Shown: positions 8,451 through 23,477 of the stretch, piece after piece | Layout of the letters: every line of letters starts with the position of its first letter | Numbering within the stretch: position 1 is the first letter of the stretch | Source of the DNA: Acidobacteriota bacterium | Lineage (GTDB): Bacteria > Acidobacteriota > Vicinamibacteria > Vicinamibacterales > UBA8438 | Assembly (NCBI GenBank): GCA_002726085.1 | Contig: PBRZ01000109.1 | Span: forward strand, 1 to 35,022 | DNA length: 35,022 bases | Reading direction: 5' to 3' | Position numbers and translations under genes: made by a program | Notes under the pieces: generated by a model | Databases searched by the model: none | What the model was told of the DNA's origin: nothing | Seen by the model: the letters and a program-made list of their open reading frames with translations, nothing else

Positions 8451-9290
8451 ATGTCCGACGTCTCACTGCACGGTGAGACGCCGGGCCACGGTCTGGCGGC
8501 CGACCTGCTCGTCTCGCTTCGGCCGGATCAGTGGACCAAGAACCTCATCGTGTTTGCGGGGCTCGTGTTCGGGGGCCAGCTCCTCGAACCGAGTGCCGTG
8601 GCCCGCGCGGGCGGCACGTTCGGCATCTTCTGCGCGCTGTCGAGCGCCATGTATCTAGTCAACGACGTGGGCGACCGCGCCCGCGACCGGCGGCACCCTG
8701 TCAAGGCCACACGGCCGATCGCGGCTGGACGTGTCTCCCCGGCAGTGGCACTCGGTACGGCCGGCCTTCTCATAGCGGGCGGGGCGGCCTTGGCATTCCT
8801 GCTCGCCCCCCGGCTGGCGCTGCTGGCGCTGGTGTTCGTCGGGTTGTTGATCCTGTACTCGCGGGTCCTGAAACAGGTCGTGATCCTCGACGTGCTCGTC
8901 ATCGCCATCGGCTTCGTCCTGCGGGCGGTTGCCGGAGCGGTGGTCCTCGACGTACCGATCAGCCAGTGGCTGCTGGTCTGCACGCTGTTGCTGGCGTTGT
9001 TTCTCGCACTGACCAAACGGCGCCAGGAGATCGGGGTTCTGGGCGCTGAGGCGATGCAGCACCGCCCTGCACTTGGCCACTACAGCCCGCAGATCCTGGA
9101 CCAACTGGTCACGATCGTAGCGGCCGCAACCCTGGTAAGCTACGCGGTGTATACCACCGGCGCGGAGACGCTGGAAAAGTTCGGCACCGATCTGGTGTGG
9201 GGCAGAGCCCCACGGAAGGATGCCGCGGAGTGGGGCTTTGGGGTTCCCCGCGGAGCGCCCGCGTGGAGTTCGGGGCGAAGCCCCGACTAA
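8451..9290 (+). CDS. UbiA-family prenyl-phosphate phosphoribosyltransferase, C-terminally truncated
   Basis: The first ~250 residues match the decaprenyl-phosphate phosphoribosyltransferase branch of the UbiA superfamily, polytopic inner-membrane enzymes that build a lipid-linked sugar donor. Visible are SLRPDQWTKNLIVFAGLVFG, the metal/diphosphate motif NDVGDRARD (Asn71, Asp72, Asp75, Asp79), HPVKATRPIAAG, the second site YSRVLKQVVILDVLVIAIGFVLRAVAG, and LTKRRQEIGVL. After EKFGTDLVW the family sequence stops and 29 unrelated residues follow, encoded by the palindromic element 9197-9286. Family members normally continue about 45-60 residues with further membrane segments. The enzyme may be inactive, altered, or rescued by an unlinked copy. 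The next gene starts 6 bases after the stop, so the lost part is not present in another frame. Confidence 0.8.
   Translation: MSDVSLHGETPGHGLAADLLVSLRPDQWTKNLIVFAGLVFGGQLLEPSAVARAGGTFGIFCALSSAMYLVNDVGDRARDRRHPVKATRPIAAGRVSPAVALGTAGLLIAGGAALAFLLAPRLALLALVFVGLLILYSRVLKQVVILDVLVIAIGFVLRAVAGAVVLDVPISQWLLVCTLLLALFLALTKRRQEIGVLGAEAMQHRPALGHYSPQILDQLVTIVAAATLVSYAVYTTGAETLEKFGTDLVWGRAPRKDAAEWGFGVPRGAPAWSSGRSPD
9197..9286. repeat. GC-rich palindromic element replacing the 3' end of the prenyltransferase gene
   Basis: The segment begins with a perfect hairpin, GTGGGGC-AGA-GCCCCAC (9197-9213), ends with another, TCGGGGC-GAA-GCCCCGA (9270-9286), and has GGGG-TT-CCCC flanked by CCGCGG copies between them. 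Both ends have 7-bp stems and 3-base loops. The protein frame read through it is low in family similarity. It looks like a REP/MITE-like element; only this copy is seen in the window. Confidence 0.65.
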
Positions 9291-9296
9291 ATAACA

Positions 9297-10550
9297 ATGG
9301 CCGAGTTCAACATTCAGTCGAGTTCTGTCGATGTCACGCGGATCATGGAGCAGATCCGTCAGCGTATCCGTGAAAAACGGGGCACAGACTACACCGAGCA
9401 ACAAACCCAGGAACTGGCCACGGTGAAGCTCGAGCGGTTTCTCGACCCACGGCAGGTACGGTCTGACCTGGTCGAGCATTACCGGAACCTCGAGCCACCC
9501 GCGGCGTTGGAACCTGTCCGTCACGAGAAACCGGGCCCGGCGCCGGAACCGTTTGAATTCGACGAGCATACAATCTACGCGTCGTCCAGAGGAACGATGG
9601 GGAAACTGATCCGTCTGATCCGCAAGCTCTTGAACCCGATCCTCAAGCTGTTCATCAACCCGAACCCGGTCTCGTTCGCGCTGACGCGGCAGGCGGAGAT
9701 CAATACCTGGACGTTGCGGCTCCTGCAGCAACAGACCGATCTTGCCGAACGGGTCACCAAGCAGTTCGAGCGGGCCGGTGCGAAATTTGCCGCACGCGAG
9801 GAGCTCGACGCCCTGAACTACGAGGTGCTCAACAATCTCGTGGTGGAGATGAGCCGGCTGTCGGTGGACATGAAGAATCACCGGATGCTGGTGGAGTCGG
9901 TAGCCGGGCGGCTCGATTTCGACGAACGGCGCGCGCGCGCGCTGGAATCGGTGGTCCAGAGCCGGTCTCCGCGACCACCTGGCGGCCCCGACGGCACTGG
10001 CGAGGACGCCGAGAATACTTCGTCGACCGGAACCAGCCGGCCCCGCCGACGACGGCGACGGTCCCGGCGACGGTCCGGTGGGACGACGACGCCGGACACC
10101 GGAACAAACGCCGCCGCCGCGGCCGGGGGATCCGCCGAGAGTGAGAGGGCAACGTCGGCGCCTGAACCGGCTACTACGACACTCCCAACGGACACGGCTG
10201 GTCAGAACACCGAGCCGGCACAGACCCCTGCAGCCACGCCGCCACCTGCGCCGCTCGAAGAGCCGTCGGCCAAGCCACCGGAGACGAGCCCATCGACTTC
10301 GACTGCTACTTCCGTGGACGCTGCATTGCCGACACCGGCCGCCGACACCGGGTCGACTGCTCCGTCTGGGGACCCTGAACCGCCGACACCGGCCGCGCTG
10401 CCGCAGGTCGCCGACACCGGGTCGCCAAGATCAGCCCTCGCGCCGCCGACGCCAGGTCCAAGTGATGCCCCCGCACCGGCGGCGGCACCGGCGACCGAGA
10501 CCGTCGCGCAGCCATCCCCCGAGGGGGAGACCGGCACCGACGAACAGTGA
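9297..10550 (+). CDS. Unknown protein with conserved N-terminal half and Pro/Thr/Ala-rich tail
   Basis: A 417-residue protein I cannot assign. The first ~230 residues look folded and partly helical: VDVTRIMEQIRQRIREKRG near the start, then an amphipathic stretch LIRLIRKLLNPILKLFINPNP (~105-125) that could lie on the membrane, then heptad-like helices ending in SVAGRLDFDERRARALES. Around residues 245-260 is a very basic patch (RPRRRRRRSRRRS), followed by ~155 residues rich in Pro, Thr and Ala with internal DNA repeats. No signal peptide or classical membrane span is evident. It sits directly before four glycosyltransferases and overlaps the first (GTGA), so a scaffold or accessory role in polysaccharide assembly is a reasonable inference only. 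Confidence 0.7.
   Translation: MAEFNIQSSSVDVTRIMEQIRQRIREKRGTDYTEQQTQELATVKLERFLDPRQVRSDLVEHYRNLEPPAALEPVRHEKPGPAPEPFEFDEHTIYASSRGTMGKLIRLIRKLLNPILKLFINPNPVSFALTRQAEINTWTLRLLQQQTDLAERVTKQFERAGAKFAAREELDALNYEVLNNLVVEMSRLSVDMKNHRMLVESVAGRLDFDERRARALESVVQSRSPRPPGGPDGTGEDAENTSSTGTSRPRRRRRRSRRRSGGTTTPDTGTNAAAAAGGSAESERATSAPEPATTTLPTDTAGQNTEPAQTPAATPPPAPLEEPSAKPPETSPSTSTATSVDAALPTPAADTGSTAPSGDPEPPTPAALPQVADTGSPRSALAPPTPGPSDAPAPAAAPATETVAQPSPEGETGTDEQ
10328..10424 (+). repeat. Imperfect duplication in the low-complexity tail
   Basis: GCCGACACCGGCCGC occurs at 10328-10342 and 10382-10396; GCCGACACCGGGTCG occurs at 10341-10355 and 10410-10424. This suggests recent slippage or duplication inside the Pro/Thr/Ala-rich coding tail. 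Confidence 0.7.
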
Positions 10551-11866
10551 GGCTTGCCGTCGTCGTCCAGCGCTATGGCACCGACCTGAACGGTGGCGCG
10601 GAGCTGCATGCCCGGTATGTCGCGGAACATCTCGCTCGACACGCCGAGGTCGAGGTGCTCACGACCTGCGCGACCGACTACATTACATGGCGCAACGAGC
10701 TTGACGCCGGGCTCGACCGGGTAAATGGTCTGCGGGTCCGACGATTTCCTGTCAGCTGCGAACGCGACGTCACTGATTTCGGCCAGCGGTCCAAGCAGGT
10801 GTTCGAGGAGCCGCATTCAGTCGCGGAGGAGTTGGCGTGGCTGCGGAGCGAAGGACCGACCAGCCCGAGCCTGATCAACCACCTGCGCCGGCAGGGCGAT
10901 GAATACGACTACTGCATCTTCTTCAGCTACCGCTATTACCACGCGTATCACGGCATCCGGGTCGCAGCTCCACGAGCTGTGCTGGTGCCCACCGCCGAAC
11001 GGGACCCAGCACTGGGGCTGCGCATTTTCGGCGACAGCTTTCGAGGCGTTCGCGCGCTCATGTACAACTCGCACGAGGAGCGGGCTCTGATTCAGGCAGT
11101 GTCGAACAACGAGAGCGTGCCTGGTGTCGTCGTCGGCATCGGATCGGAAGTGCCGGCGCAGCCAGAACCGCTGCGATTTCGACAGGCCACCGGCATCGAA
11201 GGTCCGGTGGTCATCTACGTAGGCCGAATCGACGAAAACAAGGGCTGTAGCGAACTGTTTGACTACTTTCGCCGCTATGCGCGTGTCTCGCCACAGCTGA
11301 CCCTCGTACTGATCGGCAACCCGGTCACACCGATTCCCGTGCACCCACGCATCCGACATCTGGGCTACATCGCCGATCAGGAGAAGTTCGATGCCATGGC
11401 GGCGGCCGATCTGTTGGTGATGCCGTCGTACTACGAGAGCCTGTCGATGGTGACACTCGAGGCATGGGCGCTTGGTCGCCCCGTGCTGGTCAACGGTCGC
11501 TGCGACGTGTTGTGCGGTCAGTGTATCCGCAGCAACGCAGGACTCTATTACGAGAGCTACGAGGAGTTTGCCGAAGCGCTGCACACGATCGTATCGAGTA
11601 GCGCCCTGCGCAACGCGTTGGGCTCGAACGGACGAGCCTATTTCAACGCGCACTATGCCTGGCCAGTCATCGAACGGAAATACCTGGATATGCTCGATCG
11701 GTTAGAGCGTGAGGAAGCCGCTTCGGTGAAGCCGACGCAGCCGCGTGTGGGTTGGTTTGGGCGCCGCCGGCGTAACCTGCCTCCCGCCCGGCAGGAGGTC
11801 GACCGACTGCCTACCGGTCCGGCGTCCCGCAGCAGCGGCAACAATGATGTCGGACCCGCTTCATGA
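10547..11866 (+). CDS. GT4 glycosyltransferase (paralogue A)
   Basis: A 439-residue GT-B retaining glycosyltransferase of family GT4, which transfers a sugar from a nucleotide donor at the inner-membrane face. The N-terminal acceptor domain starts VVVQRYGTDLNGGAELHARYVAEHLA with VLTTCATDYITW. The donor domain begins VVIYVGRIDENKGCSELF, and the EX7E signature is Glu297-Glu305 in YESLSMVTLEAWALGRPVLVNG. GTG 10547 overlaps the previous stop as GTGA and gives the family start. The C-terminal ~50 residues are basic and probably disordered. It is clearly a paralogue of the fourth enzyme (14303-15676), sharing VVQRYG, VLTTCA.DYITW, VRRF and LVPTA. Donor and acceptor cannot be read from the sequence. 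Confidence 0.88.
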   Translation: MRLAVVVQRYGTDLNGGAELHARYVAEHLARHAEVEVLTTCATDYITWRNELDAGLDRVNGLRVRRFPVSCERDVTDFGQRSKQVFEEPHSVAEELAWLRSEGPTSPSLINHLRRQGDEYDYCIFFSYRYYHAYHGIRVAAPRAVLVPTAERDPALGLRIFGDSFRGVRALMYNSHEERALIQAVSNNESVPGVVVGIGSEVPAQPEPLRFRQATGIEGPVVIYVGRIDENKGCSELFDYFRRYARVSPQLTLVLIGNPVTPIPVHPRIRHLGYIADQEKFDAMAAADLLVMPSYYESLSMVTLEAWALGRPVLVNGRCDVLCGQCIRSNAGLYYESYEEFAEALHTIVSSSALRNALGSNGRAYFNAHYAWPVIERKYLDMLDRLEREEAASVKPTQPRVGWFGRRRRNLPPARQEVDRLPTGPASRSSGNNDVGPAS

Positions 11867-13098
11867 CCGCGCTGTCTTCATCGCCTCGTCCCGCCGTTCA
11901 CCAAGTGCTGGCTACGCTCGGCTATGGCGACGCCATCGGCAACGAAGCACTCGGCATCTGTAGTGCGCTGCGCGCAGCCGGTTACGAATCCGAGATCTTC
12001 GTCGAGACCGCCGACCCCAGGCTGGAACCCCGCACCCACGACTATCGAGATCTCATTGAGGCCTCGCATCCGGACAACATTCTCATCCACCACTTCTCGA
12101 TAGGGTCACGGGCGTCGCGAATTGCCTACGCCCTCCCGGACCGGATGGTGCTCGTCTATCACAACATCACGCCACCCGAATACTTCGTCGGCGTGCATGA
12201 GGACCTTGTGCGTCTCTGCTACAGCGGCCGGCGCGAGCTTCGCGCCTATGTGCCCCGGTGCGACCTGGCGCTGGGGGACTCCGAATTCAACCGCCAGGAG
12301 CTCCAGCAGTTCGGCTTTCCGCACACCGGTGTGCTCCCGGTCGTTCCAAACCTCGCTCATTTGCATGTGACACCCGACCGCACGCTGGTCTCGGAATTCG
12401 ATGACGAACGGATCAACATTCTCTTCGTCGGTCGGATCATCCCGAGCAAGCGGATTGAAGATGTCATCCGCTTCTATCAGGCATTCCGGCTCAAACATCA
12501 GCACAATGCCCGCTTGCTGCTGGTCGGCGCCCACGGGGGGTTCGAATCGTATCTCGCGACGCTGCATCACCTGATCGCCACTCTGCGGGTGCCGGACGTG
12601 CACTTCATGGGTCACGTCTCGAACGCCGAGCTGACCGCGTGCTACGACGTAGCAGACTTGTTCCTGTCTGCGAGTGAGCACGAGGGCTTTTGCGTCCCGC
12701 TGATCGAAGCCTTCCACAAGCGGATACCGGTCGTTGCCTACGCCTCAACGGCGGTGCCCACGACAATGGACGGCGCCGGCGTCCTCTACGAGACGAAGGA
12801 CCCCAGACATGTGGCCGCGATCATGGACACGGTGCTGTCTAACCCGGCGCTCGAGTCGGAGATCGTGCGGGGCCAGGACGCGGCACTGGACCGGCTGCTG
12901 GCACATGACTTCGAAAGGGTCCTGTGCGAGGCGATCGACCAGGTGAGCCGATCCGCCCGGCTTCCGCGCACCGAGGTGCGATGGGATTTCTGGCAGCGGT
13001 TCGCGGATTGGGAGCGCCTGGAGGAGTTGCGTCTGTATCGGCCATCCGCCTACAAGGCCCTGCCTTTCGCGCCGGGAGAGCGCGGGGAGAACCCGTGA
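11863..13098 (+). CDS. GT4 glycosyltransferase (paralogue B)
   Basis: A 411-residue GT4 enzyme. The N-terminal domain reads HQVLATLGYGDAIGNEALGICSALRAAGYESEIF, with VYHNITPPEYF and DLALGDSEFNRQEL. The donor domain starts NILFVGRIIPSKRIEDVI, and the EX7E motif is Glu274-Glu282 in SEHEGFCVPLIEAF. This GDAIGN/YHNITP type is common in bacterial cell-wall polysaccharide clusters. ATG 11863 overlaps the stop of the previous gene as ATGA. It is a paralogue of the next gene (shared YHNITP, LALGDSE.NRQEL, SEHEGFCVPL.EA, VAYASTAVP). The C-terminus has an extra ~70 residues relative to that paralogue, including WDFWQRFADWERLEELR. Confidence 0.88.
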   Translation: MTALSSSPRPAVHQVLATLGYGDAIGNEALGICSALRAAGYESEIFVETADPRLEPRTHDYRDLIEASHPDNILIHHFSIGSRASRIAYALPDRMVLVYHNITPPEYFVGVHEDLVRLCYSGRRELRAYVPRCDLALGDSEFNRQELQQFGFPHTGVLPVVPNLAHLHVTPDRTLVSEFDDERINILFVGRIIPSKRIEDVIRFYQAFRLKHQHNARLLLVGAHGGFESYLATLHHLIATLRVPDVHFMGHVSNAELTACYDVADLFLSASEHEGFCVPLIEAFHKRIPVVAYASTAVPTTMDGAGVLYETKDPRHVAAIMDTVLSNPALESEIVRGQDAALDRLLAHDFERVLCEAIDQVSRSARLPRTEVRWDFWQRFADWERLEELRLYRPSAYKALPFAPGERGENP

Positions 13099-14163
13099 AT
13101 GGTGATCAATCAGTGGCTTCCGGCCGCACATCGCGGCGACGCGGTGGGCGACAGCGCGCGTCGCGTCCGCGGCTTGCTTCGCGCACGAGGCCACGACTCC
13201 GACATCTACGCCTTGACCGTCGATGACGACTTGCGGGGGGAGATCCGTCCTTTCTCAGACTCGGCGGCGCGTCGAGGCGATGTCACGATTCTGCATTTCG
13301 CCATCGCCTCGCCGATGAGCGAGGCGCTCGCGTCCTTGCCGACCGGGAAGGTCATCCAGTATCACAACATTACGCCGGCGCACTTCTTCGCCGGCTACGA
13401 CGCCGGCCTCGTCGCGCTGGTCACCCGCGGGCGCGAGGAACTGGCCAGTCTGGCTGGCCGAGTCGATCTGGCGTTGGGCGATTCCGAATACAACCGACAG
13501 GAGCTCGAGACGCTCGGGTTCACCGAGACCGGCGTGTTTCCGATCGCGGTAGACACGGCGCGCCTGACCGAGGCGCCGCCCCGCCCGGCACTCGAACGTG
13601 TGCTGCGTGATGGGCTGACGAACATCCTCTTCGTCGGGCGCATCGCCCCGAACAAGAAGCTCGAGGACCACCTGCGGCTCGCCGAGCACTACAAGCGGTA
13701 CATCGACGCGTTTCACCGCTTCATCTTCGTGGGACGGGAGGACGCCTGTCCCCGCTATTACGCGATGCTCCGCGCGCTGATGACCGAATACAAGATGACG
13801 AGTGAACGTTTCTGGTTCGTGGGACCAGTGCCGGACGAGGACCTAGCCGTGTTCTACCGGACCGCCAGCGCCTATGTGTCCCTCAGCGAACATGAGGGGT
13901 TCTGCGTCCCCCTCCTCGAGGCGATGGCCACCGATGTGCCGGTGCTGGCGTATGCATCGACGGCAGTGCCGGAAACGCTCGGGGGCGCCGGCATCGCGTT
14001 CTCGCCCAAGGACTTGGAGTATGCGGCAGAGATGCTCGGGCTCCTGGTGTACGATGACAGTTTGCGCACGAGCATACGAGAGGGTCAGCGGCGCCGATTG
14101 ACAGATTTTACCGACGCGCGCTTCGATACTCACCTCGACCGGCTCGTCGCGCGATTCTCATGA
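13099..14163 (+). CDS. GT4 glycosyltransferase (paralogue B')
   Basis: A 354-residue GT4 enzyme closely related in layout to the preceding gene: INQWLPAAHRGDAVGDSARRVRGLLRARGHDSDIY at the N-terminus, IQYHNITPAHFFAGY, DLALGDSEYNRQEL, donor domain NILFVGRIAPNKKLEDHL, and EX7E Glu266-Glu274 in SEHEGFCVPLLEAM. It starts immediately after the preceding stop with no intergenic base, and has no clear ribosome site of its own beyond coupling. It lacks the C-terminal extension of its neighbour. The pair most likely arose by tandem duplication followed by divergence. Confidence 0.87.
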   Translation: MVINQWLPAAHRGDAVGDSARRVRGLLRARGHDSDIYALTVDDDLRGEIRPFSDSAARRGDVTILHFAIASPMSEALASLPTGKVIQYHNITPAHFFAGYDAGLVALVTRGREELASLAGRVDLALGDSEYNRQELETLGFTETGVFPIAVDTARLTEAPPRPALERVLRDGLTNILFVGRIAPNKKLEDHLRLAEHYKRYIDAFHRFIFVGREDACPRYYAMLRALMTEYKMTSERFWFVGPVPDEDLAVFYRTASAYVSLSEHEGFCVPLLEAMATDVPVLAYASTAVPETLGGAGIAFSPKDLEYAAEMLGLLVYDDSLRTSIREGQRRRLTDFTDARFDTHLDRLVARFS

Positions 14164-14225
14164 TCGAATCGGAGACCCACACGATGTACACCGTCTATCT
14201 CGCAGACACCGCCCCTGAGCCAGAT

Positions 14226-14281
14226 ATTGGCGAAGCCCTCCGGCTTCCTCCTGACTTCTGTCTTCTGACTTCTGACTCCTC
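14226..14281 (+). repeat. Heptamer repeat element, copy 2 (between glycosyltransferase genes)
   Basis: The 26-base head 14228-14253 is identical to copy 1 and holds the GAAGCC-CTCC-GGCTTC hairpin. The tail is CTCCTGA, CTTCTGT, CTTCTGA, CTTCTGA, CTCCT. The copy fills about half of the only sizeable gap (14164-14302) in an otherwise overlapping glycosyltransferase run. Confidence 0.85.
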
Positions 14282-14302
14282 GAGCACCCTGCAGACCCAC
14301 TC

Positions 14303-15676
14303 GTGAAGATTGCGTTCGTCGTCCAACGCTATGGCGCGGAGATACTCGGGGGTTCCGAGTACCACTGCCGATTAATCGCGGAGCGGCTCGCCGGCCGACA
14401 TCAGGTGGATGTATTGACCACCTGCGCACGCGACTACATCACTTGGAAGAACGAGTACCCCGAGGGCGAGGATCGGATCCGGGGCGTCACCGTGCGACGG
14501 TTCGCGAACGACCGCACGCGGGACCTGGCATCCTTCAACGAGTACTCCGACTGGATCTTTCACAACGATCATTCACCGGCGGACGAGCAGGAATGGTTGA
14601 AGCAACAGGGACCCTGGTGCCCTGGCCTGCTTGCATATCTCGAGCAGCACCATCGTGCATATGACGCGCTGATCTTTTTCACCTATCTGTATGCGCCGAC
14701 GGTCCTGGGGCTGCAGGTGGACCCTGCCCGGAGCATCCTGGTGCCCACGGCACACGACGAGCCGGCGATCCGACTTGGTCTTTACCGGGAGGTGTTCTCG
14801 CTGCCGGCTGGAATCGCCTACAACACCAGCGTGGAGCGCGGGTTTCTCAAACAGCTGTTCTCGGTCGGTGCCAAGAACGAGGAGACGGTGGGCTGCGGCG
14901 TCGAATTGCCCCCCTCGCGCCTGCACGACCAGCGAGCGGGTGAGCCGGCGACGCCGCCTCCGCCAGAGAACCCCGAGGCCGCGGAAGAGGGAGCCGAACA
15001 GACCGGCCAGCCGAATCGAGATGCGTCCGACGACAACGGCGTGCTCGGATCCCCGCTATCCGCCCGCGGCGCCGTGTTCCGCCGACGTCACCGCCTGTTT
15101 GGCCCCTTCGCGCTCTACGGCGGCCGGATTGACCCTGGGAAGGGCTGCGAGGAGTTGCTCGATTACTTCAACAGCTACGCCGAGTCGAACGGCGATGCGT
15201 CGCTGGTACTGATGGGGATCAAGCTAATGCCGATTCCCGATGCGCCCCACGTACGGTTTGCCGGCATGTTGTCTGAAACCGAACGAATCGAAGCGCTCGA
15301 GGCGGCGACCGTGGTGGTGGTGCCGTCACCCTTCGAGAGTCTCTCGCTGTTGGCGCTGGAGGCGTTCTCGGTTGGCACCCCGGTGCTCGCGAACGCCCGC
15401 AGTGACGTGCTGGCGGACCACTGTCAGCGTAGCAACGGCGGTCTCTATTACGGGAACCGCGACGAGTTCAGCGAGTGCCTGCGGTTGCTGATTCACGACG
15501 CCCCCCTGCGGGCCGCCATGGGGCGTCAGGGACGCCACTACGTGCGCACCAACTACCGGTGGGACGTGATTGTGGGCAAATACGACCGGTTGATCGCCGG
15601 ACTCCAGCGCTCCCGACCTACCGGGCGCAGCCGGCGCAGCCGCCGCGGCGGGAAGAACGCCTCGTCACGAAGCTGA
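14303..15676 (+). CDS. GT4 glycosyltransferase (paralogue A') with inserted linker
   Basis: A 457-residue GT4 enzyme paralogous to the first glycosyltransferase: FVVQRYGAEILGGSEYHCRLIAERLA, VLTTCARDYITWKNEYPEGEDRIRG, SILVPTAHDEPA in the acceptor domain; LYGGRIDPGKGCEELLDYF starts the donor domain, with EX7E Glu345-Glu353 in FESLSLLALEAFSVG. Between the two domains, residues ~208-262 form a Pro/Glu/Asp-rich insert ending in a basic run (VFRRRHR) that the paralogue lacks. The last ~20 residues are Arg/Ser-rich. GTG 14303 gives the family start MKIAFVVQRYG. It is separated from the preceding gene by a repeat element, so it may have its own expression. Confidence 0.87.
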   Translation: MKIAFVVQRYGAEILGGSEYHCRLIAERLAGRHQVDVLTTCARDYITWKNEYPEGEDRIRGVTVRRFANDRTRDLASFNEYSDWIFHNDHSPADEQEWLKQQGPWCPGLLAYLEQHHRAYDALIFFTYLYAPTVLGLQVDPARSILVPTAHDEPAIRLGLYREVFSLPAGIAYNTSVERGFLKQLFSVGAKNEETVGCGVELPPSRLHDQRAGEPATPPPPENPEAAEEGAEQTGQPNRDASDDNGVLGSPLSARGAVFRRRHRLFGPFALYGGRIDPGKGCEELLDYFNSYAESNGDASLVLMGIKLMPIPDAPHVRFAGMLSETERIEALEAATVVVVPSPFESLSLLALEAFSVGTPVLANARSDVLADHCQRSNGGLYYGNRDEFSECLRLLIHDAPLRAAMGRQGRHYVRTNYRWDVIVGKYDRLIAGLQRSRPTGRSRRSRRGGKNASSRS

Positions 15677-15721: not shown

Positions 15722-17149
15722 TCAGGCGCCTCGGCGGTCGGTCATCACAGCCCCGGCCCCCCGTTTCCGGCGCGGCCGAATCTCGTGACGCTTGATCATC
15801 TCGTTGAGTGTCGTCGGCTTGATCCGCAGCATCTCGGCGGCCCGCCTCTGCACTCCACCCGCCGCGACGAGCGTCCGTTCGATGAGCTGGATCTCGAAGG
15901 CGGCAGTCACTTCCTTGAACGAGATCCCCTCTGGCGGCATCACGAATTGCGGAATCTGAAACGGTCGCGACGTCCGGACCGCGTCGGGAACCAGCTCCAC
16001 ACCGATCCGGTCGCCTGTGACCAGCACGACCGCGCGCTCGATGACGTTCTCGAGCTCACGCACGTTGCCCGGCCAGTCATACTGCTCCAGCACGTCCAGC
16101 GCGTCTGGTGTCAGCTCCAGATGTGGCTTGCCGTTCTCAGGCCCATACTTCTCCAGGAAGTGCTGGGCCAGCAACCGGATGTCCTCGCGCCGCTCACGCA
16201 GCGTCGGCAGCTCCACCTTGATGACGTGGAGCCGGTAATACAGGTCCTCCCGGAAGCGGCCGTCCGCGACCATCCCCTTCAGGTCGACGTTGGTGGCCGC
16301 GATGATGCGCACGTCGACCTTGACGGTGTCGACGCCGCCCAGCCGCATGAACTCCCGCTCCTGCATCACCCGGAGCAGCTTGGCCTGCGTCTCGACCGGC
16401 ACGCTCCCGATTTCATCGAAGAAGATGGTGCCCTTGTCGGCCAGTTCGAACAGCCCCTTCTTGGGCGCGACGGCCCCGGTGAACGCACCCTTGACGTGAC
16501 CAAACAGATTCGATTCGAGCAGGTCCGGCGGCAAGCTGCCGGAGTTCACGGTCACGAAGGGGCGGTCGGCACGCGTCGAATTGGCATGGAGCGCACGTGC
16601 CGCCAGTTCCTTCCCGGTCCCGCTCTCCCCTTCGACCAGGATGGTCGTGCGGCTTGGCGCAGCCTGGGAAATGAGATCGAAGACCTGCTGCATCCGCTGG
16701 CTGTGACCGATGATCTCGCTGAACCCGTGGCCCTGCGCGCGTAGACTCTCGCGCAGAGTGCGGTTTTCGGTCATCAGCCGCCGGCGTTCAGCGGCGTTAC
16801 GGACCACGACCAGCACTTCCTCGTTCTTGAACGGCTTGGTCACGTAGTCGAACGCACCGCGCTTCATCGCGGCAATCGCGTTCTCGACCGATGCAAACGC
16901 GGTGATTAAGATGACCGGCAGGTCGCCATCGAGCTTCCGCAACTCGTCGAGGGTTTCGATTCCGCCGATGCCGGGCATCATGACGTCGACGATCGCAACA
17001 TCGAACGGCTGCGAGCGCGCCAACGCCAGGCCTTCCTCGCCCGACGCCGCCAGCGACACCTGACAGCCCTCACGCTCGAGGAGCACTTGCAGGATTTCCC
17101 GCATGATTTCCTCGTCGTCGATGATCAACACGGACGCGTTACGTAGCAT
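15722..17149 (-). CDS. Sigma-54-dependent NtrC-family response regulator
   Basis: A 475-residue activator with three domains. The receiver domain (~5-120) has acidic residues Asp11/Asp12, the phospho-acceptor Asp55 in VAIVDVMMPG, and Lys105. The AAA+ domain (~145-385) has Walker A GESGTGKE (174-181), the sigma-54 contact loop GAFTGA (221-226), Walker B GTIFFDEIG, and the stretch FREDLYYRLHV. The C-terminal Fis-type HTH is seen in AAGGVQRRAAEMLRIKPTTLNEMIKRH. When phosphorylated it should remodel sigma-54 RNA polymerase at specific promoters. It overlaps the end of the kinase gene by 11 bases, so they form one two-component system. Its target genes are not evident; no good -24/-12 promoter was found in the window. 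Confidence 0.95.
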   Translation of the reverse strand: MLRNASVLIIDDEEIMREILQVLLEREGCQVSLAASGEEGLALARSQPFDVAIVDVMMPGIGGIETLDELRKLDGDLPVILITAFASVENAIAAMKRGAFDYVTKPFKNEEVLVVVRNAAERRRLMTENRTLRESLRAQGHGFSEIIGHSQRMQQVFDLISQAAPSRTTILVEGESGTGKELAARALHANSTRADRPFVTVNSGSLPPDLLESNLFGHVKGAFTGAVAPKKGLFELADKGTIFFDEIGSVPVETQAKLLRVMQEREFMRLGGVDTVKVDVRIIAATNVDLKGMVADGRFREDLYYRLHVIKVELPTLRERREDIRLLAQHFLEKYGPENGKPHLELTPDALDVLEQYDWPGNVRELENVIERAVVLVTGDRIGVELVPDAVRTSRPFQIPQFVMPPEGISFKEVTAAFEIQLIERTLVAAGGVQRRAAEMLRIKPTTLNEMIKRHEIRPRRKRGAGAVMTDRRGA

Positions 17150-20108
17150 CGGCCTTTCTCGTGCCAGTCAGGCGCGTGGCAGCCAGGACCTGAACACCCC
17201 CCACTCGCTTCTCTGCAGGTGGGGGCAACGGCAGACTCAACGTGAACCGCGTGCCATGCTCTGGTCCGCTCTCGCACTCGATGGAACCGCTGTGCTCCTT
17301 GATGACGCCATAGGAGATTGACAACCCAAGCCCGGTGCCTTGCCCGACCGCCTTGGTCGTGAAGAACGGGTCGTAGATTCGGGGCAGATCGTCGCTGGCA
17401 ATGCCGGTACCGGTGTCCGCCACCTCGACGATGGCCTGCGTGCCCTCGACCCGTGAGCAGATCGACAACCAGCCCCCGGTGGGCATGGCGTCACGCGCGT
17501 TCAGGAACAGGTTCAGGAACACCTGTTGCAACTTGAACTCGACGCCCTGGACAACGGTTGGCATCGCGGACAGCTCTCGACGCAGCTTGATGTTGGACGT
17601 CTGGAGCTGATGCTCGATCAGCGTCAGCACGTCATTGATGAGAGCGTTGAGATCAACTGGACCAGCCGCATCAGATCGACCTGGCCTGGCAAGATTGAGC
17701 AAGCCATTGACGATCTTGGCGGCCCGGAACGTCTGTCGCTCAATCTTTTCGAGCAGCTGGGTCCGCGGGTCGTCCGGCTCGGTACCCTCGAGCAACATCT
17801 GGGTAAAGCTCGAAATCCCGGTGAGCGGCGTGTTGACTTCGTGCGCGACACCGGCGGCCAGCAGACCGATCGACGCCATCTTGTCGGACAGCTGCAGCTG
17901 CTCCTCTAGATGCACCCGCGCGGTGATGTCTTCGAGAATTACCATCGCGCCGGCGGTATCGCCGCTCGGTGTCCGGAGCGGTGCCAGCGCCGCGTTGACC
18001 AGGAGCTGCCGCGGTTCATCGGCATGCCGCGACACGAGCGGGACCCGATACAACGTGGCGCCCTCGGGCTGCTCCCGGCGCGCACGACGCAGGCGGTCCG
18101 TAAACGACGCATCGAACAGGTCGGTGAGCGGCTCGCCGATTGCCGCATCGTGCGTCACACCGTAGATCCGCTCGAGGGCGGCGTTCCATCGAAGCACCCG
18201 GTCTTCGAGGCCGAGCACCACCAACCCATCGTTCAGCGATTCGATGATGTTCTCGTTGAACTTTCGGACCCGGTCGACCTCGGACGCTTTCACCTGGAGC
18301 TGGGTATACAGCCGACCATTCTCAATGGCGGTGGCCACCTGGCCGGCCACCGCCGCCAGCAGCGCGACATCCTCACTGCTCAGCGGCTCGCCGCTCGTTT
18401 TCGCGCCCAGCGCCAGTACGGCAATGGTCTCTTCTTCGGATACGCACGGCACGAAATAGTGGATCCCCTGGTTTCGCCAAAAGGCCACATCCTCGTCTGG
18501 GTGACGACGCGCCGACACCGGCTCATCCAGCATGACGGTGTGGCGATCGACCAGACGTCTGCCGATGCTCGACGTCCGCTCCAACGCCGGCCAGTCTTCG
18601 GCGACGCGGGCACCGCTGGCATGGAACGGGCGGTAGACACCGTCGCCGTCGTTGCCGGGCGGAGAGAGCATCAGCAGCATGTCGTCGATGACCAGCGTCT
18701 CGGTGACCCGCGTCACCAGCCGCTGGGCGAGACGGTTGAGATCGAGATCGCTGTTCAAGTCGCGCGCGAATCCAACCAGCGCACGCCGGTAGTCGTAGCG
18801 GTCCCGGTAATACACCCGATCGAGCATCGACTGGATGGCGTTCTTGACGGGACTCGCTACGAGCACCACGACCAGCGTCGCCAGCACGGCGATGATCGAA
18901 TTGTGCCCGTCGGACTCTTCGAGGAACACCTCCCTGGCCAGCCGCTCCAGCACGAGATAGATGGCGACCATCGCCGAAACCGCCGCGGTGTAGACCAGCC
19001 CGCGCTTGATGATCACCTCGACGTCACGCAACCGATACCGTACGATCGCCGACGCGAAGGCCAGGGGAATGAGGCTCAACGGAATTGCGGTGAGGTCGAG
19101 CGGCGCGGTGGTGTCGAATCCAAGCGCCCACGGAAACGCGTAGCCCAACGCGAACGGCAGCCCGCCCAGGACCGCCCCCCAGACGATCCAGCGAAGCTGA
19201 CGCTTCGACGTCACCGACGGCACCCGGTGCAAGGTAAGAATCATCAGCGCCAGTCCGGTCATCACGCAGATCGCCAGATAGGCAAACTCCAGGCGCCAGA
19301 CGCTTCCTACCGCCGTCGTGAAGACACCCGAGCCGGCATCCCCTGCTAGCGCCACCGCCTCCACCAGCACCAGCGCCAGCGCCGGCGCATACACGATCGG
19401 CAGCAACAACCGCCCGAGACGGTTTCGGATCCACCCTGGCGCCCGCTCTGGAAACACCAGCGCGAAATGCACGAACATCGGTGCGAGCACCTTGGTCGAG
19501 ATGGCGTCCGCCCAATAGAACACCCAATCCAGCCTGTCCAAGCGACCGCTGAACGAGAAGGCGAACATCCCGAAGAACGCGACGCTGAGCCAGAAGAAGT
19601 GCAGGGTGGCCTGGTTTCCCGGTCGTCGCAGCCTGACCGACGCGCCCACCAACAAGGTGAACACCCCGATGACGACGAGCACGAAGTAGACCCGTGTCTG
19701 ACCGGTGGGCACCGGTCGCAGGGAGACCTCGAACAGGCGGGCCTGACCGAGACGCAACAGCGAGTAGGTCAGGCTGGCGTCGGACTGACCCGCGTGAAGG
19801 ACCGCGACCGCATCGCCGGCCGTCTCGACCGGCACCTTATCGATCGCCAACAGCAGGTCCCCAACCTCGATGCCGGCCAGGTCGCCCGCCTCGCCCTCAC
19901 TGACCTCGACCGCGGTGACCCCTTCGGGCAAATCGTCCCACAGTACCCCGTCGACGACTTCGGTCCAGTTGGCCCGAACGACAACATTCGCAGCAGCCAG
20001 ACACATCAGGGCGGCAACCAACGCGACTGCCAGCACGGGCGGCGCCCAGGCGTCCCAGCGCTTTCGTCCGGCCAGAGCCGAGGTTGACGAGGAAGACAAT
20101 CGAGTCAT
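17139..20108 (-). CDS. Membrane histidine kinase: PDZ-like, multi-TM, GAF, PAS, HisKA, HATPase
   Basis: A 989-residue sensor. Order: one N-terminal membrane segment (~22-45); a PDZ-like periplasmic domain (~50-130) with AGDLAGIEVGDLLLAIDKVPV; a bundle of about eight membrane segments (~138-420) including FVHFALVFPER; a GAF-like domain (~440-605) with AGQVATAIENGRLY; a PAS domain (~612-735) with IIESLNDGLVVLG; HisKA with His756 in AAGVAHEVNTPLTG; and HATPase with N-box Asn870, DTGTGI (898-903) and GQGTGLGLS (922-930). The PDZ-like domain suggests sensing of periplasmic peptides or misfolded protein C-termini, but this is inferred. It is transcribed with the downstream NtrC-type regulator and probably starts at the AT-rich promoter near 20250. 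Confidence 0.93.
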   Translation of the reverse strand: MTRLSSSSTSALAGRKRWDAWAPPVLAVALVAALMCLAAANVVVRANWTEVVDGVLWDDLPEGVTAVEVSEGEAGDLAGIEVGDLLLAIDKVPVETAGDAVAVLHAGQSDASLTYSLLRLGQARLFEVSLRPVPTGQTRVYFVLVVIGVFTLLVGASVRLRRPGNQATLHFFWLSVAFFGMFAFSFSGRLDRLDWVFYWADAISTKVLAPMFVHFALVFPERAPGWIRNRLGRLLLPIVYAPALALVLVEAVALAGDAGSGVFTTAVGSVWRLEFAYLAICVMTGLALMILTLHRVPSVTSKRQLRWIVWGAVLGGLPFALGYAFPWALGFDTTAPLDLTAIPLSLIPLAFASAIVRYRLRDVEVIIKRGLVYTAAVSAMVAIYLVLERLAREVFLEESDGHNSIIAVLATLVVVLVASPVKNAIQSMLDRVYYRDRYDYRRALVGFARDLNSDLDLNRLAQRLVTRVTETLVIDDMLLMLSPPGNDGDGVYRPFHASGARVAEDWPALERTSSIGRRLVDRHTVMLDEPVSARRHPDEDVAFWRNQGIHYFVPCVSEEETIAVLALGAKTSGEPLSSEDVALLAAVAGQVATAIENGRLYTQLQVKASEVDRVRKFNENIIESLNDGLVVLGLEDRVLRWNAALERIYGVTHDAAIGEPLTDLFDASFTDRLRRARREQPEGATLYRVPLVSRHADEPRQLLVNAALAPLRTPSGDTAGAMVILEDITARVHLEEQLQLSDKMASIGLLAAGVAHEVNTPLTGISSFTQMLLEGTEPDDPRTQLLEKIERQTFRAAKIVNGLLNLARPGRSDAAGPVDLNALINDVLTLIEHQLQTSNIKLRRELSAMPTVVQGVEFKLQQVFLNLFLNARDAMPTGGWLSICSRVEGTQAIVEVADTGTGIASDDLPRIYDPFFTTKAVGQGTGLGLSISYGVIKEHSGSIECESGPEHGTRFTLSLPLPPPAEKRVGGVQVLAATRLTGTRKADAT

Positions 20109-20245
20109 CTGTGCGGATATCGCCTACGGTTGACTCCTGAGGTGCAAATGCTGTTCCACGAGGAATCTGACATTTCGTCGTAAACTATAGTAAATCATTG
20201 ACTTGCGCCGCGATGTCGATACTTGCCAACAACACAACCCAATAG

Positions 20246-20264
20246 TTTGGATATTATATCCAAA
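20246..20264. promoter_or_regulatory. Perfect 19-bp palindrome, candidate operator
   Basis: TTTGGATATTATATCCAAA has two 9-bp arms around a central T and lies in an AT-rich island (about 20150-20330) within an otherwise GC-rich sequence. It covers the predicted -10 box of the kinase operon, a position typical of a repressor or autoregulator site. Confidence 0.5.
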
Positions 20265-20280
20265 TAATTGAATATGCCCA
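20253..20280 (-). promoter_or_regulatory. Probable promoter of the kinase-regulator operon
   Basis: On the minus strand TGGGCA (20275-20280) and a perfect TATAAT (20253-20258) are 16 bases apart. Initiation near 20246 would leave about 138 bases of leader before the kinase ATG. The -10 box sits inside the palindrome 20246-20264. Confidence 0.45.
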
Positions 20281-20379
20281 TGGTATACAACCAGCCTGGA
20301 TACTCTTTTTGTATGTACTCGCGCATTTCCGAAGAACCAGTTGGGGACCAAGCTGCTCGATGTGAGCGGCGAATCCTCG

Positions 20380-22311
20380 CTAGAAATACACGACGACGCC
20401 ACTGACTACCTGCATGGGTGGACGCGCTACCAGCAACTCGTCGAACATCGACGCGGCCTCGTGAGGGTCGAAGAACAGACTGCGGACCGACACCAGCACC
20501 TCCCAGCGACTGCCTTCGATCGGCGAAAACGGCAGCCCCTGGTTGACCTGGACGTCGAAACGGGCATCCATCCCGGTGGGAACTTGGTGGTCAGCCCGGA
20601 CAAACGCGGTAGAGACACGACACCGGACAAACACCCGAGTGGCAGTCTCCGGAATCTCCGCCTCGAGGGCGCCGCTCACATCGTGGAAGCGCTCAGTGGC
20701 CGGACGCATCGTCCCAGGTACAGCGACGCCGAGCGCCGCGTCTGCGGTGGCCTGTCTCCAGCTCGCCTCGGCGACAGCATAGTCAACCGACCCGCTGAAC
20801 CGGTCGCCAAGCTGCCGGCGCAGTGTCAGGACCCAGCCGCGGCTGCTGAGCGACCCGGCGCGCGCCAGGTAGTAGTGCCCAGTCGGCGCATTCCCCAGCT
20901 CGTCAACGCCAAACAGGGTCGCCATCTGGTCGTTGACATCTTGATAGAACCGGCGTAAGCCGACGACATACCGGCCTGTGAGGTCGTACTCCAGCTGCAG
21001 GTCGACATGACGCGTGCGCTCCGGGTGCAGGCCGCTCGCCGGTGACAATGCGGCGAACGTTCGCTCGGGCGGCAGCCAGAACCCAGTATCGGTCGGGGGC
21101 ATGAACTCCTCGGCCCCTGGGGCCACCGTCTCCTGCGCACCGGACACCCGGAACCTGAAGCCCGCAATCGGCGTGAGCGTCACCCCTACTCGAGGGCTGA
21201 ACAGACCGTTTTCCTCGATATACCCATATTTCGCGTAGCGGCCGCCGTAATCCACCGTCAATTGTGGCGACACCGTCCAGCGATCGGACGCACCAAAACT
21301 TGCCGCGTATCGACTCTCGGAAGGCAGTGTGAGCGCCGCTGGATTGCCACCCTGGTAGCGCTGTCGCCCGTAGGAGACGTCGAGGCCGAGCTGGTGGGAG
21401 GATTCGAGATCGGAGACATAGGACCCCGATGCCGCCCAGGACATCACATCACCCGTCGTCATGGCGCCCTGCGCCGACAAGTCACCGCGCCAGATGGGCG
21501 CGCCGACCGACAGGTTCGCGATACTGGCCGAACGCTCCTCACCTGTGAGCATGTCGGCCGCCGAATCGAGGAGCGTGCCCCGCGTCAGCAGATTGACCTC
21601 ACCTGTCAGCGGCAACTCCAATAGCGCCGTCGCGAAACTCGCCGGCGAAGCGAGGCTGCGGGTGAACATCGTCACGCTCGGGTCGTCCGATTCACCGGTC
21701 GGCACCAGCTCATCGAGCACAACCCGCGTATCGACTGCCTTCAACACGCTCCGCCTGACCCGGCGGAGATACCAGGATTTCTCGCTGTGGTCGTGTGGCG
21801 CCGACGCCTCGGTGGTCGTTCCACCAAACGGCGCGGCGTCCGTCTCCTCAGGCTGGACACCGACGTCGGCGGAACTTGGCAGACCGACACCGGCCACGAT
21901 CGGCTGCGCCGACTGATCCACGCGGCTCAGGGTGATGGCGTGCACGGACGGCGTGCTTGCGCTGACCTCGATCAGCTCTCGGCGCGACGCCGCGAACCCC
22001 CGCAGGTGAGCCTGAACCAGATACGCGCCCGGCAGCAGAGCCCTCAGCAAGAAACGCCCGTCCGCATCAGCAAGAGCCAGCTCGGCGCCAGACGGCCCGA
22101 GTGCGGAAATCACCGCGCCTTTGAGCGGCATACCGGCCGTATCGGTGACAGCTCCGACGATGCGGCCCGCGGCCGCGGCCGCGGCCTGCGTGACCGGGGC
22201 GCGGCCTCCGGTTGGTTCCTGCCCCGCCCCCCCGGTGGCCGCTTCCACTGTCACTCCGCCCAGCGCAAGGACCACGATGGTGCCGACGCGCATCCGTTCG
22301 GACCAAGCCAT
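20380..22311 (-). CDS. Outer-membrane beta-barrel protein with carboxypeptidase-regulatory domain, no plug
   Basis: A 643-residue predicted outer-membrane protein. A signal peptide is seen in MRVGTIVVLALGG...VEA. Residues ~50-140 form a carboxypeptidase-regulatory-like beta-sandwich (GRIVGAVTDTAGMPLKGAVISALG, DADGRFLLRALLPGAYLVQAHLRGF). The rest has alternating barrel-like strands rich in Tyr, Gly and Ser and ends in ...VVVYF, a terminal Phe typical of outer-membrane insertion. This resembles acidobacterial TonB-linked receptors but is much shorter, and I cannot find a TonB plug domain or TonB box. ATG 22311 was preferred over an in-frame start 45 bases upstream because it follows AGAAAGGG and leaves the signal peptide at the N-terminus. 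It follows the secreted-protein gene by 41 bases. Confidence 0.72.
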   Translation of the reverse strand: MAWSERMRVGTIVVLALGGVTVEAATGGAGQEPTGGRAPVTQAAAAAAGRIVGAVTDTAGMPLKGAVISALGPSGAELALADADGRFLLRALLPGAYLVQAHLRGFAASRRELIEVSASTPSVHAITLSRVDQSAQPIVAGVGLPSSADVGVQPEETDAAPFGGTTTEASAPHDHSEKSWYLRRVRRSVLKAVDTRVVLDELVPTGESDDPSVTMFTRSLASPASFATALLELPLTGEVNLLTRGTLLDSAADMLTGEERSASIANLSVGAPIWRGDLSAQGAMTTGDVMSWAASGSYVSDLESSHQLGLDVSYGRQRYQGGNPAALTLPSESRYAASFGASDRWTVSPQLTVDYGGRYAKYGYIEENGLFSPRVGVTLTPIAGFRFRVSGAQETVAPGAEEFMPPTDTGFWLPPERTFAALSPASGLHPERTRHVDLQLEYDLTGRYVVGLRRFYQDVNDQMATLFGVDELGNAPTGHYYLARAGSLSSRGWVLTLRRQLGDRFSGSVDYAVAEASWRQATADAALGVAVPGTMRPATERFHDVSGALEAEIPETATRVFVRCRVSTAFVRADHQVPTGMDARFDVQVNQGLPFSPIEGSRWEVLVSVRSLFFDPHEAASMFDELLVARPPMQVVSGVVVYF

Positions 22312-22352
22312 GACGCCCTTTCTCGTGTCGATCGCTACTCGGATGCGGCGTC

Positions 22353-23402
22353 TCAAGACGCCGACACCGAGAAATCCACGTTATGAGTCAACGACGCGCC
22401 GTTCGTGTTGTCCGTGATCTTGATCTCGAGCCGGTAGTCTGCTTCGGGAAACCCGCTCAACGGAATCGCTTGGCCGGCGACCAGTTGATGGCCCGCCTCC
22501 AGATCGAAGTCCGGCGGCAATGTCTGCTCGTTGAACGCCTGCGGATTGGTCCGGTTGAAGTACTCGTCCCCAGCCGGCCCACGCGTGTTGAACGTGTAGT
22601 CGATCTCCACGTCCGGCAGCCCCGCTGCCGTCAGCCCGACGTTGTAGACGAGGAACACCAGCGACAGATCGTCGCTGGTAAGATACTCGGAAACGCTCTT
22701 CGGCACGATGCGCATGGCCCCGAGCGTGTACGGATTCGCCAGTTGCTGGTCGGGTGGCGGCGGTACCGATAACGACTCGATGCGGTCGGCCTGGATGATA
22801 GTACTCGTCGCGAGCTGGTCGGACCACAAATTGGGCACCGACATCGCCTTCTTGAGCATCATCGTCTTGGCCTCGGTGCCGTCAGCGACACCGCTTTCGC
22901 TCAGTGCGACGTAGACGTCATAGTCGCCGCCCGGCACCCAAAAGCCTCGGCGGATTTCATAGTTGCCATCCGCGGTGGGCGCTCCGAGGTCGATATGATA
23001 CGCGTCTTCGAAAGCCGCCTCGGGAAGTACGGGCGCCGACGCCGCGGCGGGCTCGGCTGCGGGAGGCGCCGACGCCGCGGGGGCTCCCTGCGGTGCCACG
23101 AACATATACATCGCCACGGTCGACGTGCTTACCTTCGATTGCTCCACCGACAGCGTAAACGGCACGAACGTGGTCTGCTCGCTACTCTTCAGAAAATCGT
23201 TCGCCCATCCGAACGGCTCGGTCGTGGGAACAAGCTGCCCTTGCAAGGCGGCGCCGACAATCGTGGCCAGCGACAGGATCTCCTGTTGCTGCGCGTCAGT
23301 ACGTTCTGGCTGCACCTGGCCCGCGGCCGCGGTGGCCGCCACGACGATCACCGTCGCGATGACAGACAACACTGCCTGGCGATGACGACCGGTCGACTTC
23401 AT
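22353..23402 (-). CDS. Secreted protein of unknown function, first gene of a barrel operon
   Basis: A 349-residue exported protein I do not recognise. It has a signal peptide (RQAVLSVIATVIVVAATAAAG, ~8-28). An N-terminal helical segment (QQQEILSLATIVGAALQG) precedes a beta-rich region interrupted by an Ala/Pro linker (~100-130), then FWVPGGDYDVYVALSESG and a C-terminal sandwich-like part ending EADYRLEIKITDNTNGASL. The last part resembles extracellular domains that describe mood-like 'bound form' beta folds rather than enzymes; no catalytic motif is seen. ATG 23402 is preceded by AAGGAG at good spacing, so a longer frame starting at 23477 was rejected. The downstream barrel gene is 41 bases away, implying a shared envelope task. 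Confidence 0.68.
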   Translation of the reverse strand: MKSTGRHRQAVLSVIATVIVVAATAAAGQVQPERTDAQQQEILSLATIVGAALQGQLVPTTEPFGWANDFLKSSEQTTFVPFTLSVEQSKVSTSTVAMYMFVAPQGAPAASAPPAAEPAAASAPVLPEAAFEDAYHIDLGAPTADGNYEIRRGFWVPGGDYDVYVALSESGVADGTEAKTMMLKKAMSVPNLWSDQLATSTIIQADRIESLSVPPPPDQQLANPYTLGAMRIVPKSVSEYLTSDDLSLVFLVYNVGLTAAGLPDVEIDYTFNTRGPAGDEYFNRTNPQAFNEQTLPPDFDLEAGHQLVAGQAIPLSGFPEADYRLEIKITDNTNGASLTHNVDFSVSAS

Positions 23403-23447: not shown

Positions 23448-23477
23448 ATCATAGGTGACCGGCGTCCGCCAAGTCAA
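23448..23477 (-). promoter_or_regulatory. Strong sigma-70-like promoter of the secreted-protein/barrel operon
   Basis: On the minus strand TTGACT (23472-23477) and TATGAT (23448-23453) are separated by 18 bases. Initiation would fall near 23441, about 40 bases before ATG 23402, which itself has an AAGGAG ribosome site. This is one of the best promoter matches in the window. Confidence 0.6.

Follow-up and report, generated by a model that had tools for sequence, protein, structure and literature searches.

In the ComX-ComP-ComA system of Bacillus (comQXPA), ComX has a tryptophan close to its C-terminus, and its gene precedes comP. According to PMC9620489, ComP has about 10 transmembrane segments, the first two of which enclose a PDZ domain (about 85 residues), and it is thought to bind ComX through this domain. 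In Acidobacteria, PMC6411480 already lists 8 PDZ kinases, from 6 genomes, under a 'ComP' family, so that the kinase type itself is not new.

Here we describe a locus in which a PDZ kinase is encoded behind an outer-membrane barrel protein. It lies on a contig of 35,022 nt (the window) from a member of the Acidobacteriota. Genes A, B, HK and RR form one four-gene unit, with HK and RR directly downstream of B on the same strand. A literature search did not find the four-gene set A-B-HK-RR described, and as far as such searches show the larger unit is undescribed. The unit comprises:

22353 to 23402, minus strand: gene A, secreted protein of 349 amino acids (ORF call, predicted structure, profile comparison)
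20380 to 22311, minus strand: gene B, outer-membrane barrel protein without plug, 643 amino acids (ORF call, Pfam, predicted structure)
17139 to 20108, minus strand: histidine kinase HK, TM1-PDZ-TM2, about 10 hydrophobic segments, GAF-PAS-HisKA-HATPase (Pfam, hydrophobicity)
19719 to 19934, minus strand: PDZ domain of HK, residues 59-130, between hydrophobic segments 1 and 2 (profile match)
15722 to 17149, minus strand: RR, NtrC-type sigma-54 response regulator with receiver, AAA and HTH_8 (Pfam)

HK shares the ComP layout of about 10 transmembrane segments with a PDZ domain placed between the first two. A PDZ domain (PDZ_6) was found in 36 of 37 HK N-termini (loop 50-135, 10 hydrophobic segments). 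As in comQXPA, a secreted protein bearing a tryptophan is encoded directly upstream of the kinase, and in the mini-proteins described below the tryptophan is near the C-terminus. The two systems differ in their cytoplasmic parts: the HK core is HisKA (PF00512) paired with an NtrC/sigma-54 regulator, and not a HisKA_3 core with a ComA-like regulator. RR has the receiver, the Sigma54_activat domain and the Fis-type HTH of the NtrC family, as seen with Pfam. Furthermore, the host is Gram-negative, and the ligand candidate is usually located within an outer-membrane barrel. The frames of HK and RR overlap by 11 nt (17139-17149), as expected for translational coupling.

Kinase and Regulator Are the Constant Partners of the Barrel Gene

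To follow the linkage of the genes, 80 order-level loci were fetched independently from a second collection. HK directly follows B in 73 of the 74 loci with at least 350 nt downstream, and RR follows B-HK in 67 of the 68 with at least 3.6 kb downstream. Only L070 deviates; it is a second, partial contig, and the genome it comes from has the full unit on L069. The short contig L070 carries a second B-like gene with 3.6 kb downstream that lack a kinase, and may stem from a strain mixture. A is directly upstream of B in 71/80 loci; five of the nine misses are contig edges and four are real (L139, L141-L143), while an A gene is present in L081, L114 and L115. Two records with Acidimicrobiia titles (L087, L123) contain unit genes of the Acidobacteriota type, and these bins are probably misnamed.

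The initial annotation had proposed a two-gene unit of A and B. The pair is indeed conserved, since in addition to the frequent adjacency a B homologue, almost always as one full-length copy, was found in 136 and an A homologue in 127 of 149 related genomes. The constant partner of B, however, is the PDZ kinase together with the sigma-54 regulator, and A, which can be absent (the four real misses), is dispensable for the B-HK-RR triad.

The triad also recurs in other orders of the same class and, beyond it, in further classes. HK was detected in 263 of 297 Acidobacteriota genomes. A barrel match was obtained in 136 of the 297, one per genome (one split over two contigs), and all 136 are HK-positive. 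This search used a profile of 26 divergent barrels at E<=1e-25 and scored four candidates per genome, for which reason the 136 are a lower bound (G222 was missed and found otherwise). Among 40 HK loci from other families, a B-like barrel is encoded upstream of HK in 25, a mini-protein in 6, and neither in 9. The barrel gene is adjacent to HK in L243, and in L211 one ORF lies between the two. All nine genomes with neither upstream of HK hold a barrel elsewhere; the motif described below is clear in eight of these barrels (e.g., WKWTLRSSANRPILR) and looser in the ninth. After an unlinked barrel, L294 and L295 encode a protein of more than 1,100 amino acids on the same strand, and the beginning of the one in L294 resembles a carboxypeptidase-regulatory TonB receptor.

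A barrel or a mini-protein was found in 138 of the 150 genomes that match HK best, and a deeper search added 3 more (G223, G312, G378). A large ORF with an outer-membrane-protein-like end is directly upstream of HK in G275 and G310. HK is at a contig edge in G178 and G340, to which neither barrel nor mini-protein could be assigned, and neither was clearly assigned in G296. In G263, G393, G423 and G350 neither was found, which counts against the signalling model presented below.

B Is Predicted to Form an 18-Strand Barrel without a Plug

B starts 41 nt after A and has two recognizable parts:

21928 to 22161, minus strand: CarboxypepD_reg domain of B, residues 51-128 (Pfam, 4.2e-12)
20383 to 21606, minus strand: 18-strand barrel of B, residues 236-643 (predicted structure, structure comparison)

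Pfam also assigned residues 293-515 to TonB_dep_Rec_b-barrel (PF00593, 8.5e-14). Among 72 homologues of B, CarboxypepD_reg is present in all and PF00593 in 68. A profile search at E<=0.01 detected a Plug domain in none of the 72, the predicted structure of B contains none, and the matches at the same threshold include no STN domain. This confirms the earlier description of B as a 643-residue barrel with a carboxypeptidase-regulatory domain and no plug. No Pfam match of B to the OprD or alginate-export family was obtained at E<=1, and a search of solved structures by sequence mainly matched CarboxypepD_reg-like domains. An S-layer identity of B was discarded, as the NCBIfam match reached 26 bits against a cut-off of 1400.

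The structure predicted for B alone (mean pLDDT 79.6) shows the CarboxypepD_reg sandwich (49-130), a low-confidence linker (133-222), a short helix (177-184) and a closed barrel of 18, not 22, strands of at least 9 residues between positions 236 and 642. Residues 133-222 could enter the lumen of the modelled barrel. The C-terminal phenylalanine typical of outer-membrane proteins (F643) is invariant in all aligned homologues. Foldseek placed TonB receptors at the top (FrpB, 7e-11). With a second aligner (VIA), 18-strand porins of the OprD family and AlgE scored best, with Z values of about 16 to 17.4 over about 270-312 residues (4frt_A, OprD family: Z 17.4, rmsd 4.8, 281 aligned; 5d5d, AlgE: Z 17.1, rmsd 4.6, 298 aligned), and TonB receptors followed about one Z unit below (Fiu, Z 16.2).

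B thus shares CarboxypepD_reg, the PF00593 barrel and the top Foldseek matches with Oar-like TonB-dependent transporters, but it lacks the plug, which is replaced by a linker with a motif, and has 18 instead of 22 strands. With OprD/Occ porins and AlgE it would share the 18-strand fold, as judged from the model, but a sequence-family match is missing, and B has an additional periplasmic domain and the motif. We read B as a TonB-receptor barrel that probably lost its plug and was reduced to 18 strands. An open pore or a display platform, as suggested in the initial annotation, is a possible reading of the modelled structure.

A Tryptophan-Arginine Motif Is Located at the Place of the Plug

21739 to 21774, minus strand: motif of B, residues 180-191, WYLRRVRRSVLK, consensus WxLRHxRRSVLK (alignment; W180 in 72/72)

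Where the plug would be, B carries the pattern W-x-[LIV]-R-x3-R-x-[VI]-L. The mean frequency of the top residue is 0.72 for positions 174-192, compared to 0.28-0.30 in the flanking linker. Besides the invariant W180, the homologues conserve R183 (0.94), R187 (0.99) and L190 (0.99), and 66 of the 72 aligned rows fit W-x-[LIVM]-R-x3-[RK]-x-[VIL]-L. R183 is also one of nine nearly invariant positions over the 26 phylum-wide barrels, a set whose other members are 14-28% identical to P0001. The motif is absent from all 17 other ORFs of the own and other genomes that match the barrel profile N-terminally, i.e., with its CarboxypepD_reg end. Some families have a looser form (WxxxxVLRxxxxRLIFR and similar; L209-L211, L224-L225, L245), which counts against reading the motif as a kinase input.

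Motif, Kinase and Regulator Persist after Loss of the Barrel

The barrel is absent from four small genomes (G058, G067, G075, G082), which belong to one family within the order of the window genome and keep A. In them, A and HK flank an ORF of about 117-137 codons, whose product has a signal-like N-terminus and ends ...AWWLRHTRRSVLR or ...AWRLRHVRRSVLK. At 22 loci elsewhere in the phylum an unrelated-looking secreted mini-protein, mostly of about 90-140 codons, ends ...WAIRSGERHILN and similar. All 26 mini-proteins end exactly 11 residues after the tryptophan (W+11). In 10 genomes with mini-proteins that were searched, no full-length barrel was found, just matches of the size of CarboxypepD_reg. 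On a tree of HK (99 rows, quick IQ-TREE, order-level loci thinned to one in three) the 'mini' state needs 2 changes, the starred branches force 2, and both groups of mini-proteins fall within barrel-bearing clades. The barrel was thus lost twice independently, while motif, HK and RR stayed. Because HK-RR keeps the motif after the barrel was shed, the motif would be the functional link, and we regard this as our strongest evidence.

The persistence of the motif also bears on another role for a PDZ kinase beside a barrel, namely envelope quality control. The PDZ domain of HK would read misfolded outer-membrane proteins like DegS, and B would be a dedicated reporter substrate that exposes the motif when its assembly fails. 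The location of the PDZ domain in the first extracytoplasmic loop of HK and the invariant F643 are compatible with such a sentinel. However, what stays constant is the internal motif rather than the barrel strand at the C-terminus, and the mini-proteins have no barrel, so that we consider this function quite unlikely.

A Proposed Model for Signalling from the Barrel to the Kinase

We think that A, B, HK and RR probably constitute an envelope-signalling unit, in which the motif of B is the input of HK, most likely via the periplasmic PDZ domain. Gene order, conservation of the motif, both barrel losses and the sigma-54-like promoter are read from the sequences, and the contact of the motif with HK and its PDZ domain is what we infer. 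Loss of the plug and shrinkage to 18 strands would have turned a former TonB-receptor barrel into B, which would serve as an outer-membrane platform for the motif. The periplasmic N-terminal part of B would present the motif to HK, where it would most likely be sensed by the PDZ domain in the periplasmic loop, and a signal passed across the envelope would tell RR whether the barrel is empty, liganded, misassembled or A-bound.

For TonB receptors it is established that they are inserted with the N-terminal part in the periplasm. If B inserts in the same way, its N-terminal part would be periplasmic as well, and the PDZ loop of HK would be periplasmic if the N-terminus of HK is cytoplasmic. With both parts in the periplasm, motif and PDZ domain could therefore meet, although a conserved gene neighbourhood alone does not establish that two proteins bind each other. 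PDZ domains commonly bind ligands that end in a hydrophobic residue. The fit of the motif to such a ligand is not perfect, as nearly all mini-proteins end with a polar residue after leucine (tyrosine in one) and the motif is internal in B. Signalling from the periplasmic part of a barrel to a partner in the inner membrane would resemble FecA-FecR surface signalling, but B has no STN domain, and a PDZ kinase takes the place of the anti-sigma factor.

More tentatively, the unit may represent a phylum-wide, Gram-negative type of ComP-like peptide signalling. The ligand of the PDZ kinase would be built into a beta-barrel, giving a tethered-ligand receptor, and shedding of the barrel, which occurred twice, would leave a free secreted protein with the ligand as its C-terminus. 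We consider this extended view possible, but doubtful. Since the barrel-less forms would provide a ready-made minimal ligand, a peptide of 12 residues would allow the input of a PDZ sensor kinase to be tested directly. The unit would be a conserved candidate for signalling from the envelope to the cytoplasm in the Acidobacteriota, a large and poorly tractable phylum of soil and marine habitats, and may give a role to two groups of proteins without one, the plugless CarboxypepD_reg barrels and the Ig half of GWxTD proteins.

A Sigma-54-Like Promoter Precedes HK-RR but Not A-B

23448 to 23477, minus strand: sigma-70-like promoter of A-B, TTGACT-18-TATGAT (2 sites in the region versus 0.6 expected in shuffles)
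20144 to 20158, minus strand: sigma-54-like promoter TGGAACAGCATTTGC, 36 nt before the HK start (site scoring)

Sigma-54-like sites were counted at a score of at least 12 of 14. Such a site is present in the B-HK gap of 37/66 order-level loci, compared to 3.9 in dinucleotide shuffles, and before HK in 27/37 loci of other families, compared to 2.0 in shuffles (perfect sites, 8 versus 0); these counts overstate the number of independent events, since related loci are not independent. RpoN is present. Upstream of A the number of sites is not above chance (4/71 versus 7.2 in shuffles), and sigma-54 control of A-B was rejected on this basis. HK-RR is therefore likely a sigma-54 operon, with A-B transcribed separately. 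The operon would be controlled by its own regulator, with RR driving its own HK-RR genes. Upstream of the mini-protein genes the sites are likewise not above chance (1/22 versus 1.0 in shuffles), which counts against the proposed signalling unit. The AT-rich island between B and HK (20180-20300) contains a second promoter-like site, TGGGCA-16-TATAAT (20280-20253). A search of the own genome for a sigma-54 regulon gave 10 exact consensus sites compared to 6 for the reversed-pattern control; as most exact sites fall inside open frames, a regulon is not claimed.

The promoter data also bear on a rival explanation, a regulated transport locus. B would serve as a porin for import or export, with A as an accessory at the surface or in the periplasm, and HK-RR would respond to the substrate and regulate the locus; the motif would be a folding or docking element with no signalling role. 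A regulator beside a transporter is a common arrangement, and the similarity of the barrel to OprD porins and AlgE as well as the PF00593 homology agree with transport. Control of the locus by HK-RR, however, is at odds with the lack of sigma-54-like sites above chance upstream of A-B. In addition, the barrel was lost twice with motif, HK and RR retained, and one copy per genome across the phylum is unlike substrate-specific uptake loci. We therefore regard transport as rather improbable, and favour the motif as kinase input.

A Is Related to the Ig-Like Half of GWxTD Proteins

In agreement with its initial annotation as a secreted protein of no known family, A has a hydrophobic, signal-like N-terminus and no match in Pfam or NCBIfam. 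The predicted fold (mean pLDDT 90.6) consists of an N-terminal helix and two Ig-like domains. Comparison to solved structures by sequence gave nothing below E 0.02. A fold search returned RbmA and generic Ig folds, and since the Foldseek TM-scores were low (~0.2), kinship with RbmA is not claimed.

A relative of A was found beside the unlinked barrels. In 8 of these 9 loci an A-like gene is located upstream, and the C-terminal half of its product matches the A profile (E 1e-17 to 5e-29). Both of the A-like proteins that were tested contain a GWxTD domain (TIGR04514), and the C-terminal half of such GWxTD proteins matches the A profile over about 45-335, whereas the GWxTD domain is absent from A itself (P0002, no NCBIfam match). 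A is therefore a relative of the Ig-like half of GWxTD proteins, and the association of A with B predates the order.

This association, together with the absence of a plug in B, could also be explained by an open pore or a secretion conduit for A, as suggested in the initial annotation. The idea fits the adjacency of A and B in most loci and the A-like genes upstream of unlinked barrels. However, A persists in the four barrel-less genomes, and other genomes retain B without A, both at L139 and L141-L143 and in other classes. The conduit is disfavoured for this reason, and we hold this explanation to be highly unlikely.

Paralogues of A occur at other sites in related genomes (L175, L176, L177, L178), some of them within much longer ORFs. 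In the window, the unit is adjoined on the opposite strand (8451-15673, plus strand) by a run of glycosyltransferase-like genes behind a gene for a UbiA protein resembling decaprenyl-phosphate phosphoribosyltransferase.
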